Assembly: GCF_024105735.1 (NCBI RefSeq)
Contig: NZ_JAAAML010000002.1
Span: 806,001-870,000, forward strand
From: Parahoeflea alexandrii
GTDB lineage: Bacteria > Pseudomonadota > Alphaproteobacteria > Rhizobiales > Rhizobiaceae
Direction of reading: 5' to 3'
Length of the DNA: 64,000 nucleotides
Under the pieces are notes generated by a model. The model had not been told where the DNA came from, ran no database searches, and saw only the letters and a program-made list of their open reading frames with translations. This document shows positions 180 to 27,972 of the stretch, piece by piece (position 1 is the first letter of the stretch; each line of letters opens with the position of its first letter). Made by a program: the position numbers and the translations under genes.

Positions 180-204
180 GGAACTTCTGCCAGCCCTGCC
201 CGTT
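180..204 (+). promoter_or_regulatory. EcfG (general stress sigma factor) type promoter for the aldehyde dehydrogenase operon
   Basis: GGAAC at 180-184 is separated by exactly 16 bases from CGTT at 201-204. This matches the known alphaproteobacterial EcfG/RpoE2 consensus GGAAC-N16/17-CGTT. The start codon at 233 lies about 25 bases downstream, leaving a short leader that holds the ribosome binding site AAGGAG. Seen: the exact motif, orientation and distance. Inferred: control by EcfG. Confidence 0.6.
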
Positions 205-20263: not shown

Positions 20264-20399
20264 GGGTAGTGTGTCTCCGCCAAGTCTCAGGCTCTCACAT
20301 AGGCGCTGAGGGGGGAGGATTGCAACGGGGAGGGACGTATTGGGAGAGAGTGGCAGCTGTCCTTTCCGAAATTTTTTTGCCACCAGCAGAAAAGTCTAG

Positions 20400-20424
20400 G
20401 GAACCTTTTGCGGATCGGCACGTT
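20400..20424 (+). promoter_or_regulatory. EcfG-type promoter for the HisKA_2 kinase gene
   Basis: GGAAC (20400-20404), a 16-base spacer and CGTT (20421-20424) match the EcfG consensus exactly. The chosen kinase start is at 20539, giving a leader of about 110 bases; an in-frame ATG near 20452 would shorten it. The rest of the 20264-20538 spacer must also hold the leftward gshB promoter, for which no clear boxes were seen. Confidence 0.55.
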
Positions 20425-20538
20425 GAGTTCCGCCGGAAAATTGCAGGTGTGATGATGACGACCGCGGGAACCCGCCTGCGGCCGTCAATTCGGCTGCCGC
20501 CGCACGTTGCGTCGGGTGGGCTGTGCAAAGGATCCCCA

Positions 20539-22080
20539 ATGGTCACAAAAGCGATTGCCGCTTCGGCGCGGGCCGCAATAATCTTTATCGTTGCAACTCT
20601 GCTGATCTATTCCGCCATCATCGGTGCCTTTATCTATCAGGGGGTAAACGAACAGCAGGATCGCGCGGAAGCCACCGCATCGGCGGCTGCCAAGGCGGTC
20701 AGGGTCAATACGGCATGGATTGTGGAGGTCGCAGCACAGGCGCTCAGGCGAATGGATTCGGCTCTGGGCCGGGACGTCCAGCCCAACCAGACCACCACCC
20801 TGACCGGCCTCCGGGATGCTCTCGAAGGGCTTCCCGCCACCGCCAAGGCCTACATTGTCGCCGCCGGGGGACAGACCCTTTACACCACGGATCCGAACTT
20901 TGTGGACATCGACATTCGCGACCGGGAGTATTTTGCACAGCCCGCGGCAGGAAAGCATTTCTTCACCTCGTCGCTTCTCATGAGTCGGCTCGACGGCAGC
21001 GAGATCTTTACCTTCAGCCGACGCCTGGAGCGCCAGGGCGTGTTCATTGGCGTCGCCATCATTTCCTTTGACGGAGTTCTGCTCGAGAGCCTGCTGGAGT
21101 CCCTCGATCTGGGGCCCGGATCAACCATAAGCATTCTGCGTTCCGACGGCATGCTGGTTGCCCGCTACCCGCCGGCCGAAGGCCCCGTCGACCTTAGCCG
21201 GCACACGCTGTTCACGCATATGCTTCCCAGCTCGGACGTCGGTGTCTACACCGCCAGGTCCCCGGTTGACGGAGTGCAACGTGTGGTCAGTTACCAGTCG
21301 GTTCCGGGCACCGATCTCATCGCGCTGGCGTCAGTCTCAACCGCTGAAACGATGTGGCGGTTCTGGCGCCGGGTCTGGATCTTCCTGATTGTCGTCATCC
21401 CGACGACTCTCGCCCTGGCACTCTGTGCGATATGGATCATAAGGCTTCTGCAGAAGGACGGACGCCGCAATGATGAGCTGGAAAATGCGCTAGCGACCAA
21501 CACCATGCTGTTTCGCGAGATCCATCACCGGGTGAAGAACAACATGCAGTCCATGCAGTCGCTGGTCCGGATGCAGAATCTTCCCGAAGCCATCAAGACG
21601 GACATCCAATTGCGCTTTGCAGCCATGTCGGCGGTGCATGAGCACATGTACAACCGGGATGCCTATGCTGCGCTCGATGCGCCGGCCTTCATCTCCTCGA
21701 TCACCGAAAAGCTCTTCCAGGCCTATGGCACCTCCGCGCAGCTGGCCCTCGACATCGATCCGCTGCTGATCAGCCACGAGCGCGCCACACCACTGGCGCT
21801 GCTGATCAATGAGGTCGTCACCAACGCGCTCAAATATGCCGATCTGGAAAGAGCCGGAGCAACGGTATCCATCAGCCTCAAGGGAATGTCGGAGGATCTG
21901 GCGAGGCTGGTGATCACCGACAACGGTCCCGGGTTTGACCCGGCCACCATCAGCATGGGGATGGGAACGAAGATCATCAGGGGAATGGTGATGCAGCTTG
22001 GTGGGTCCCACATCTACACATTTGACAACGGAACAGTGTTCTCCGCAGAGATCCATATCGGTTTCAGGCCCGCCGCCTGA
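20539..22080 (+). CDS. Membrane sensor histidine kinase, HisKA_2/HATPase type with Cache-like sensor
   Basis: A 513-residue kinase: transmembrane helix at about 10-33, a periplasmic Cache-like sensor (about 35-275, including IDIRDREYF and IFTFSRRL), a second helix at 278-302, then HisKA_2 with LFREIHHRVKNNMQSMQSL (phosphoacceptor among His329/His330) and an HATPase domain with LLINEVVTNALKYA and ITDNGPGFD. Kinases of this HWE/HisKA_2 class phosphorylate PhyR in the alphaproteobacterial general stress response, so the EcfG-type promoter upstream suggests feedback. No response regulator is adjacent. AAAGGA at 20527-20532 supports the start. It converges on a LysR gene with four bases between stops. 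Confidence 0.9.
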   Translation: MVTKAIAASARAAIIFIVATLLIYSAIIGAFIYQGVNEQQDRAEATASAAAKAVRVNTAWIVEVAAQALRRMDSALGRDVQPNQTTTLTGLRDALEGLPATAKAYIVAAGGQTLYTTDPNFVDIDIRDREYFAQPAAGKHFFTSSLLMSRLDGSEIFTFSRRLERQGVFIGVAIISFDGVLLESLLESLDLGPGSTISILRSDGMLVARYPPAEGPVDLSRHTLFTHMLPSSDVGVYTARSPVDGVQRVVSYQSVPGTDLIALASVSTAETMWRFWRRVWIFLIVVIPTTLALALCAIWIIRLLQKDGRRNDELENALATNTMLFREIHHRVKNNMQSMQSLVRMQNLPEAIKTDIQLRFAAMSAVHEHMYNRDAYAALDAPAFISSITEKLFQAYGTSAQLALDIDPLLISHERATPLALLINEVVTNALKYADLERAGATVSISLKGMSEDLARLVITDNGPGFDPATISMGMGTKIIRGMVMQLGGSHIYTFDNGTVFSAEIHIGFRPAA

Positions 22081-25842: not shown

Positions 25843-26034
25843 ATGAACAGCGGCCTCCTCGTCTGCGCGACCGGAGCTGGCAGTCTGCCGCCGGTTTTCC
25901 TTGGCTTGTCTGTCTTTCCGGTCCTGGCGCCGCGGCATCAACCCCGCAAGTCCGGGATACTCAAATTTAATATACTTTATGTATTTCCATCGTGAGCGTT
26001 TCTTTCCGGCAATCCACGACGGCACTCAAAAGTG

Positions 26035-27972
26035 ATGAAAACTGCAGTTTCTCGGTTGCGACGTCTGTTGGTGGTGCCTGCCGACAATGCAGATCTGCTG
26101 AAGGCCCAGTTTGAGGTTTTTTCCAAACAGGTGCCCCTGATGTATGCGATCGTGCTGATCAATGCATGGGCGCTTGCCATCACCTTTGCGCAACGGGCGC
26201 CCGATTGGCTGACGATCTGGATTCCGGCCTTCATTTCAGTGGTGTGCTGTGTCCGAGTCGCGAGCTGGTGGCGCTCCGTCTCCGCCGTGCCCGATGCCAA
26301 AACCGCGCACAAGGCGCTGACCCGAACCAATCAGTTCAGCTTCATCCTCACTGCTGCTCTCGTTGCATGGTCGTTGTCGCTCTATCCCTATGGCGATGCC
26401 TACATGCGCGGCAATATCGCTTTCTTCGTCGGCATCACCGGCCTGGGTGTGATCATCTGTCTGCAGCAATTGCCCTCGGCGGCGTTCATTGTCGCGGCCG
26501 TGATCAACATTTCGTTCGTGACCTATTTCAGCCTTGCCGGGATCGCCTCCTTCTTGGGCATGGCTGTGAACCTGGTGCTGGTGTCAGTCGCCCTGCTGCT
26601 GGTCGTCACGGTGCAGTACCGGCATTTCTCCGCAGCGGTGACAGCCCGAGCCAAGCTGGAAACTGCAAACCACGAAAATGAACGGCTTGCCAACCTGGAC
26701 AGCCTGACCGGACTGTCCAACCGCCGCCAGTTCTTCGCACGGCTTGAACAGGACTTCTCAAACGCGAAAGGCCGGCGGCTGGCTGTCGGTCTCATCGATC
26801 TCGATGGCTTCAAGCCCGTCAATGATCTCTATGGTCATACCGCCGGTGACAGCCTGCTTTACGAGGTTGGCCAGCGTTTGTTGGCGTTTGTCGGCGACAG
26901 TGGTCATGTCGCAAGGCTGGGTGGTGACGAGTTCGCCTTCATTGTCGACGATTGTCCCGACAACGAGGCCCTGATCGGCCTTGGTGAGGAGATCTGCGCA
27001 GCGCTGCGGACCCCGTTCGTGCTGAGCGACTCGACGGTCCTGATCTCCGGATCGATTGGCTTTTCCGTGTATCCCGAGCTCGCCGAAGACGTGCACCAGC
27101 TTTATGAGCGGGCCGATTACGCGCTCTACAAGGGCAAGGAATCAAACCGCGGTCATGCGCTTCTGTTCAGCAAGGAACATGTTGCCGCCATCGAGCAGAA
27201 CCAGCAACTGGAGCAATTGCTCAGCAAGGCTGATCTTGATGCGGAGCTGACCGTCTTCTTCCAGCCCATCGTCAACATCCAAAGCGGCAGGACCGTTTCG
27301 TTCGAAGCCCTGGCGCGGTGGAACAGTCCGGTGCTCGGCAACGTCTCGCCTGCCGTGTTCATCCCTGTTGCCGAACGTATCGGGCTGATCAGCGAACTGA
27401 CCTGCACATTGCTGAGAAAGGCCCTTGCTACGGCCATCACCTGGCCTGAGGAGGTGGGCCTGTCCTTCAACCTGTCCACGCACGACATCAGTTCATCCGA
27501 CGATGTGGCGACCATTGTCGGCATCATCCTGTCAAGCGGCATGGATCCCAGGCGGCTTGATCTGGAGATCACCGAAACGGCGATGATGTATGATTTTGCC
27601 CAGGCCAAGGCCGCTATCGAGATCTTCAAGATCCTCGGCTGCGGGATGGCGCTGGACGACTTCGGCACCGGCTATTCGAGCCTCAGCCAGTTGCACGCGC
27701 TGCCGCTGACCAAGATCAAGATCGACCGCAGTTTCGTCTCCGGTCTGCACAAGAACCCGGCAAGCTACAAGATCGTCAAGTCCCTGCTTGCACTCAGCTC
27801 CGACATGGATCTGGACTGTGTCATCGAAGGCGTCGAGACCAGCGAGGAGCTCGAGGTGCTCAAGAAGCTCGGCGGGATTCTGGTTCAGGGTTACTATTAC
27901 TCCGCCCCCGTCGCTGGGAGCGAGATCGGGAGATTTCTTCCCCGGCCCGAATTGGGCCGCAAGGCGGGTTGA
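26035..27972 (+). CDS. Membrane bifunctional diguanylate cyclase/phosphodiesterase (GGDEF-EAL)
   Basis: A 645-residue c-di-GMP enzyme with about 190 N-terminal residues of transmembrane helices, then GGDEF (LGGDEFAF intact) and EAL (FEALARWNSP, DDFGTGYSSL intact). No RxxD inhibitory site is present before GGDEF. The plan matches the 4697-6613 protein, so the two may be distant paralogues. GTG 26032 and ATG 26035 are adjacent in frame; ATG is listed. The ribosome site is weak. A+T-rich DNA with a TATACT hexamer at 25971-25976 lies upstream, without a good -35. It ends tail-to-tail with another GGDEF-EAL gene. Confidence 0.9.
   Translation: MKTAVSRLRRLLVVPADNADLLKAQFEVFSKQVPLMYAIVLINAWALAITFAQRAPDWLTIWIPAFISVVCCVRVASWWRSVSAVPDAKTAHKALTRTNQFSFILTAALVAWSLSLYPYGDAYMRGNIAFFVGITGLGVIICLQQLPSAAFIVAAVINISFVTYFSLAGIASFLGMAVNLVLVSVALLLVVTVQYRHFSAAVTARAKLETANHENERLANLDSLTGLSNRRQFFARLEQDFSNAKGRRLAVGLIDLDGFKPVNDLYGHTAGDSLLYEVGQRLLAFVGDSGHVARLGGDEFAFIVDDCPDNEALIGLGEEICAALRTPFVLSDSTVLISGSIGFSVYPELAEDVHQLYERADYALYKGKESNRGHALLFSKEHVAAIEQNQQLEQLLSKADLDAELTVFFQPIVNIQSGRTVSFEALARWNSPVLGNVSPAVFIPVAERIGLISELTCTLLRKALATAITWPEEVGLSFNLSTHDISSSDDVATIVGIILSSGMDPRRLDLEITETAMMYDFAQAKAAIEIFKILGCGMALDDFGTGYSSLSQLHALPLTKIKIDRSFVSGLHKNPASYKIVKSLLALSSDMDLDCVIEGVETSEELEVLKKLGGILVQGYYYSAPVAGSEIGRFLPRPELGRKAG

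Follow-up and report, generated by a model that had tools for sequence, protein, structure and literature searches.

The locus considered here raises the question of whether a sensor kinase, the gene for which lies behind an EcfG-type promoter, reports back to the very stress response to which that promoter belongs. In the established pathway of this response, phosphorylated PhyR binds NepR and EcfG is thereby freed. The gene resides in a Hoeflea genome, within the whole stretch of 64,000 nucleotides that was analyzed (hereafter the window), and a preliminary description of that DNA had suggested that it may be an orphan kinase that amplifies the response under whose promoter it stands. We set the chances at about even that it is indeed an EcfG-controlled kinase feeding the general stress response, which it would most likely amplify. 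The features on which the argument turns are as follows:

20400–20424, plus strand: EcfG-type promoter, an exact match with GGAAC at 20400–20404, a spacer of 16 nt (N16) and CGTT at 20421–20424.
20527–20532, plus strand: AAAGGA, read from the sequence as the probable ribosome-binding site for the ATG at 20539.
20539–22080, plus strand: intact gene for a sensor histidine kinase of 513 amino acids (Pfam domains, ortholog alignment, open reading frame).
21526–21528, plus strand: codon of the predicted phosphoacceptor His330 (H-R-V-K-N), invariant in six aligned sequences.
Kinase residues ~12–34, ~39–267 and ~275–303: first transmembrane helix (TM1), periplasmic dCache sensor and second transmembrane helix (TM2), with helix limits set by eye and from a low-confidence model.
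Kinase residues 327–396 and 417–505: HisKA_2 with a short hairpin, and HATPase_c (both from Pfam).

The start of the kinase at ATG 20539 is supported by its orthologs, which read M-V-T/S-K/Q-A-I-A from the same point. In the sensor, Pfam reports dCache_1 (residues 91–261) and dCache_1_like (183–264); in the core, the matches to HisKA_2 (54.3 bits, cut-off 22.3), to HWE over residues 327–377 (30.1 bits, cut-off 22.8) and to HATPase_c (34.4 bits, cut-off 26.4) all pass, and the joint presence of an HRxxN dimerization domain and the matching ATPase domain places the protein in the HWE/HisKA_2 class. By eye, both H330-R-V-K-N and the ATP-binding boxes are intact. An AlphaFold model run on six orthologs (mean pLDDT 50.8, pTM 0.41) was of too low a quality for fold comparison and served for the layout of helices and strands only. 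The closest solved relative of the dCache sensor by sequence is 3lif (E 2.4e-22), which says nothing firm about the cue. The only cysteine read in the kinase, C296, lies in TM2, and hence the protein lacks the periplasmic cysteine of the PhyK type, a residue with a functional role according to a passage in PMC5964349.

As to its surroundings, gshB diverges to the left of the kinase gene, and the end of a LysR gene on the opposite strand comes 4 nt beyond the stop codon of the kinase; thus, the kinase gene probably forms a unit of its own. With a home-made receiver profile, no receiver ORF turned up in positions 1–40000 of the window, in keeping with the earlier reading of the kinase as an orphan. 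Further afield, positions 1–47 are the end of a PAS-PAS-GAF-HWE kinase gene (L090:6120-8048), nearly all of which falls outside the window, ~20 kb from our kinase, and PAS-GAF-HWE kinases also occur near its relatives in Sulfitobacter brevis and NT-25. At 26032–27972, on the plus strand, lies the gene for a GGDEF-EAL protein whose N-terminal part resembles membrane helices by eye.

The canonical EcfG promoter, as given in a passage of a review, has AAC at -35 and CGTT at -10 (PMC8103513). The site at 20400–20424, with 114 nt between it and the kinase ATG, displays the EcfG regulon motif (GGAAC-N16/17-CGTT), and no sigma-70-like consensus match was found in 20264–20560. Hence, the arrangement claimed at the outset, a HisKA_2 kinase with a Cache-like sensor behind an exact EcfG-type site, is borne out. 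Nevertheless, the match alone proves little, since the bare consensus, with 99 sites genome-wide, is no commoner than its reversed control, with 106; by the same count, we ruled out motif number alone as proof of an EcfG promoter. Strict sites within the window number five against 0.89 expected from shuffles. Separately, an exact GGAAC-N16-CGTT at window positions 180–204 on the plus strand is separated by 28 nt from the ATG (233) of a downstream gene for an aldehyde dehydrogenase, which is nearest to succinate-semialdehyde dehydrogenase models, below their cut-offs; the spacing suits a real EcfG promoter, for which it is a candidate from the motif.

It is the conserved position that makes the site ahead of the kinase credible. 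Across our genome, G002 (NORP7) and G010 (H. halophila), all 9 of the 9 motif columns are identical, against 4 of 16 in the spacer and 92 of 230 in the other columns; under a simple column model this corresponds to 0.4^9 = 3e-4. The sites ahead of the orthologs in G002, G010 and G016 (YIM 152468) lie at -138, -140 and -142, respectively. G016 has a different upstream gene but carries the site as well, with 117 nt between it and the ATG versus 113–115 in the others; as MAFFT left it unaligned with them, its homology rests on the equal distance to the ATG, and it may have been either kept or newly gained. The site is absent in four of the eight close orthologs (G003, G005, G011 and S. brevis), and none was found directly upstream of the kinase in 27 further family loci; thus, EcfG control of the kinase gene is not a constant of the family. 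The interpretation given in the preliminary description stands in part. Its claim of EcfG control is backed by the conserved site in the other four of these eight and by the EcfG-type sites around the family (below), and weakened by the four orthologs that lack it. For the Hoeflea gene itself, the conserved site makes such control very probable.

The general stress switch of this genome lies elsewhere, as had been surmised: phyR, nepR and ecfG sit together at 870.7–872.5 kb of contig C8, and the kinase is on contig C7. The 18-kb region around these three genes holds 8 strict sites against 0.34 expected, implying that the stress locus of this genome uses the EcfG motif. The same region encodes two HWE kinases, of which one is a neighbor of phyR and the other has a CHASE sensor. 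Genome-wide, there are seven HWE/HisKA_2 kinases at E 0.001; for two of them, ours and a GAF-HisKA_2 protein, the HisKA_2 score exceeds the HWE score. An exact-motif search of the genome, which a diverged hub could escape, found no PFxFATG receiver (MrrA/SdrG, the FATGUY motif). Among 17 other members of the genus, two (G001 and G015, each 99% complete) gave no NepR match at E 0.001, so that part of the genus may have lost the general stress switch.

With regard to its affinities, the best NCBIfam match of the kinase core is to the PhyK model NF051872, at 114.4 bits against a cut-off of 750, followed by a LOV-kinase model at 55.5 bits against 450. The HisKA_2 domain spans 70 residues over 76 profile positions, short of the full-length hairpin that is typical, though not required, in the class. 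Compared with most HisKA_2 rows from PhyR-like loci, the DHp hairpin is six residues shorter (five residues against two of the rows), and its short length is the same throughout the 35 family loci in which it was measured (with near-duplicates). To place the protein, we built a tree of 43 DHp-CA rows, which uses proximity to a PhyR-like gene as a proxy for PhyK and holds no named PhyK, LovK or Pak rows; L124 (131 residues) was dropped and the genome's own kinase at C8:624k was cut to its last 205 residues. Our kinase falls in the HisKA_2 half and groups with its 15 nearest kin (89/94), beside, and not inside, the group formed by 12 kinases of PhyR-like loci (likewise 89/94); the tree leaves the branching among the HisKA_2 groups unsettled. 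By the model cut-offs, the kinase is neither PhyK nor a LOV kinase. One name in the phylogenetic comparison proposed in the preliminary description has to be struck out, as RsiB had been listed as a kinase, whereas a passage of PMC3616915 presents RsiB1 and RsiB2 as receiver-domain anti-anti-sigma factors of the PhyR type.

The PhyR-like loci themselves offer a point of likeness. We fetched 20 loci with a PhyR-like gene, 18 of which gave an HWE/HisKA_2 ORF, and a HisKA_2 kinase of one tree group is present in 12 of the 20. All ten PhyR-locus kinases run on Pfam have HisKA_2, seven with a dCache_1 match (over the cut-off in four). A class-wide search of 389 genomes, with the best three candidates scored per genome, returned nine genomes with a match at E 1e-30, our own included; over the nine other loci from that search, the hairpin was read for four and has the longer form in all of them.

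The kinase clade is accessory, being present in 15 of 121 related genomes. These carriers include seven of the 18 of the genus at an identity of at least 70%; G009, a further member of the genus, has a 35% relative. Four of the five named loci with a close relative are from Hoeflea and the fifth is from S. brevis. We considered whether the latter might be a contamination and think this unlikely: plasmids of S. indolifex and S. faviae carry copies that are 65% and 62% identical, respectively. Across the three Sulfitobacter loci (L063, L153, L154), the kinases are 62–71% identical, being plasmid-borne in the latter two species, and the S. brevis assembly also has a NepR match. More broadly, 67 plasmid records match the kinase at E 1e-60, 45 of them predicted to be conjugative, from Rhizobium, Ensifer, Sinorhizobium, Shinella, Sulfitobacter, Skermanella and NT-25; all 19 plasmid loci that we fetched have the short hairpin, and integrase or transposase genes lie near some plasmid family members. 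Two of the plasmid settings deserve separate mention. On plasmid p2 of Sinorhizobium sp. B11 (L179), a relative of the kinase lies amid receivers, a REC-HWE kinase, a Crp/Fnr gene, glgB and an amylase gene, a region that looks like a plasmid stress-regulon island and in which no strict EcfG site was found. On the predicted conjugative plasmid pRPC2 of Rhizobium sp. BG4, a sigma-70-family gene with a PhyR_sigma2 match (L160:1034-1549) and two receivers lie near the relative.

NepR is found in all 15 carriers versus 80 of the 121 relatives overall, with hypergeometric p-values of 0.0012 by genome and 0.02 by genus that do not control for relatedness and genome size. A link of the kinase to the general stress response is plausible from this co-occurrence together with its membership in the HRxxN/HisKA_2 class and the dCache-HisKA_2 layout that is common to PhyR-locus kinases. 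Further, EcfG-type sites are enriched around the family. After dropping ten near-duplicates and close kin from 35 loci (L154, L156, L171, L174, L175, L177, L180, L181, L182 and L184), and with our own locus and G016 excluded, the 23 non-redundant loci, which still include the site-less close orthologs of G003, G005 and S. brevis, contain 15 strict sites over 203 kb, compared with 2.8 +/- 1.8 (maximum 7) from 100 shuffles, 2 for the reversed control and 4.1 at the rate of our own genome. The ten chromosomal loci among them have eight sites against ~1.6 predicted from whole-genome counts, G055, G025, G060, G003 and G005 having none. The enrichment is uneven, as four of these sites come from G009 and three from Rhizobium BG4; several of the 15 fall within ORFs. 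Likewise, the carrier genomes differ in their overall motif counts, which exceed the reversed control in G025 (66 vs 23) and G048 (87 vs 46) and fall below it in G003 (92 vs 161) and G076 (68 vs 128).

Some of the individual sites around the family have a favorable position. In Shinella HZN7 and Sinorhizobium RAC02, a site stands ahead of a PAS-HisKA-receiver hybrid kinase gene, which is followed on the same strand by the family kinase, and in Rhizobium BG4 ahead of a receiver-DUF4112 gene pair. In S. indolifex, S. faviae and S. brevis, GGAAC-N16-GGTT lies ~28–35 nt ahead of a single-domain receiver gene near the kinase; GGTT is among the EcfG sites listed for Sphingomonas in a passage of PMC6599016. 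Overall, 12 of 34 family loci have receiver-domain ORFs in the flanks that we fetched, a count that includes near-duplicates and leaves out our window and L090. The best model for the receiver beside the S. brevis relative is the PhyR family (48 bits against a cut-off of 240), and PhyR is the second-best match of this receiver in our Hoeflea genome. A receiver gene near several plasmid members could be the real partner.

Loops of this kind have precedents. According to a passage in PMC5964349, SigT raises the expression of phyK and lovK in Caulobacter, which means that such loops exist, and HRxxN kinases, some of them encoded outside the phyR locus, are described as starters of the general stress pathway in a passage of PMC8103513. 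Our kinase resembles Caulobacter PhyK, as depicted in part of PMC5964349, in being a membrane sensor with a HisKA_2 core and a gene probably linked to an EcfG-type sigma factor, which raises phyK expression; it differs in lying outside the phyR locus, where PhyK is encoded beside phyR, in scoring below the PhyK cut-off and in having a hairpin ~six residues shorter than kinases of PhyR-like loci, our proxy for the PhyK sequence. It shares with LovK and other LOV kinases the HWE/HisKA_2 superfamily and, with lovK, probable control of its gene by such a sigma factor (SigT for lovK, as in part of PMC5964349), but has dCache and membrane helices in place of the soluble LOV sensor of LovK. By description, it may be likened to the Sphingomonas Pak kinases, several of which, mainly of the HWE/HisKA_2 type, feed one PhyR in a passage of PMC6599016, although its genome has no exact FATGUY-motif receiver. 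By description again, S. meliloti SMa0113/114 and exsFG are two-component genes under an EcfG-type promoter in a passage of PMC3616915 but, unlike ours, are paired with a regulator gene; the passage on these RpoE2-dependent regulator-kinase pairs states no PhyR role for them. Two earlier studies ascribed no role in the general stress response to Brucella PhyK, an orphan HWE kinase, and, in the part of PMC12354254 concerned, the authors of that 2025 work reopen the question; thus, an orphan HWE kinase need not act in this response. A limited literature search found no published account of the Hoeflea kinase. EcfG-controlled stress kinases are already in print; the novelty here lies in the branch with the short hairpin, members of which are carried on plasmids, and in the EcfG-type sites that surround it.

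Taking these observations together, we propose the following mechanism. Stress would first act via other kinases, leading to phosphorylation of PhyR, its binding of NepR and the release of EcfG. EcfG, as we infer from the conserved site, would then transcribe the kinase gene from 20400–20424 and so place more dCache sensors in the membrane. Upon meeting a periplasmic cue, the kinase would autophosphorylate on His330 and pass the phosphate most likely to PhyR, either directly or through a single-domain receiver in exchange with it. The loop would amplify or prolong the response for as long as the cue lasts. We somewhat favor PhyR as the direct or indirect target, and, should it be so, would also lean toward a positive sign. 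Speaking against this reading, the shorter hairpin and the tree position set the clade apart from the PhyR-locus kinases, the receivers near several plasmid members are candidate partners, and two EcfG-controlled precedents, LovK/LovR and the S. meliloti pairs, point in other directions.

The same parts could be wired in reverse, with the EcfG-induced kinase acting mainly as a phosphatase or a drain for phosphate that ends or limits the response, as thought for Caulobacter LovK with LovR. The SigT-controlled LovK/LovR pair is read as negative feedback in a passage of PMC5964349, part of PMC12354254 cites S. meliloti RsiC as activator and repressor alike, and in the three Sulfitobacter species the single-domain receiver gene near the kinase has a GGTT-type site upstream. 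Nonetheless, we regard it as unlikely, given that no receiver gene was found beside the Hoeflea kinase, that the kinase boxes look intact, and that the best matches of the Sulfitobacter receiver in our Hoeflea genome reach no more than 32 bits and fall mostly within large proteins. Also improbable, to a like degree, is that the induced kinase opens an output branch, letting a periplasmic cue drive a regulator other than PhyR during stress; the short DHp hairpin and the receivers flanking part of the family would suit this, whereas near the Hoeflea kinase no dedicated regulator gene was found, and the sensor-core layout is the one common to kinases beside PhyR-like genes. Finally, there is a slim prospect that the EcfG-type site matches by chance or as a relict and that EcfG does not control the kinase, for all that the bare motif is not enriched and half of the close orthologs lack it, as the motif bases were all kept while the spacer diverged and the site stands 113–117 nt from the ATG in four orthologs and two gene contexts.

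Returning to the favored amplifying loop, we tentatively set it in a wider frame, which we hold to be possible but, taken as one claim, somewhat doubtful: the short-hairpin dCache-HisKA_2 kinases may be mobile stress-sensor cassettes, found on plasmids and at varied chromosomal sites in Rhizobiales, Sulfitobacter and Skermanella, that are wired to the response of the host by an EcfG-type promoter and whose hairpin gives them a choice of receiver unlike that of PhyK. In Hoeflea, the kinase itself would carry this promoter; in Sinorhizobium RAC02 and Shinella HZN7 a tandem hybrid kinase would do so, and in Sulfitobacter and Rhizobium BG4 a neighboring single-domain receiver.

If true, the Hoeflea kinase would be an accessory sensor plugged into a core stress switch, with the sigma factor's own promoter setting when the sensor is present. 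The occurrence of promoter-bearing and promoter-less orthologs within one genus would then be a natural comparison for the role of such feedback, and the kinase branch offers a way to ask whether the length of the DHp hairpin alters the choice of receiver.
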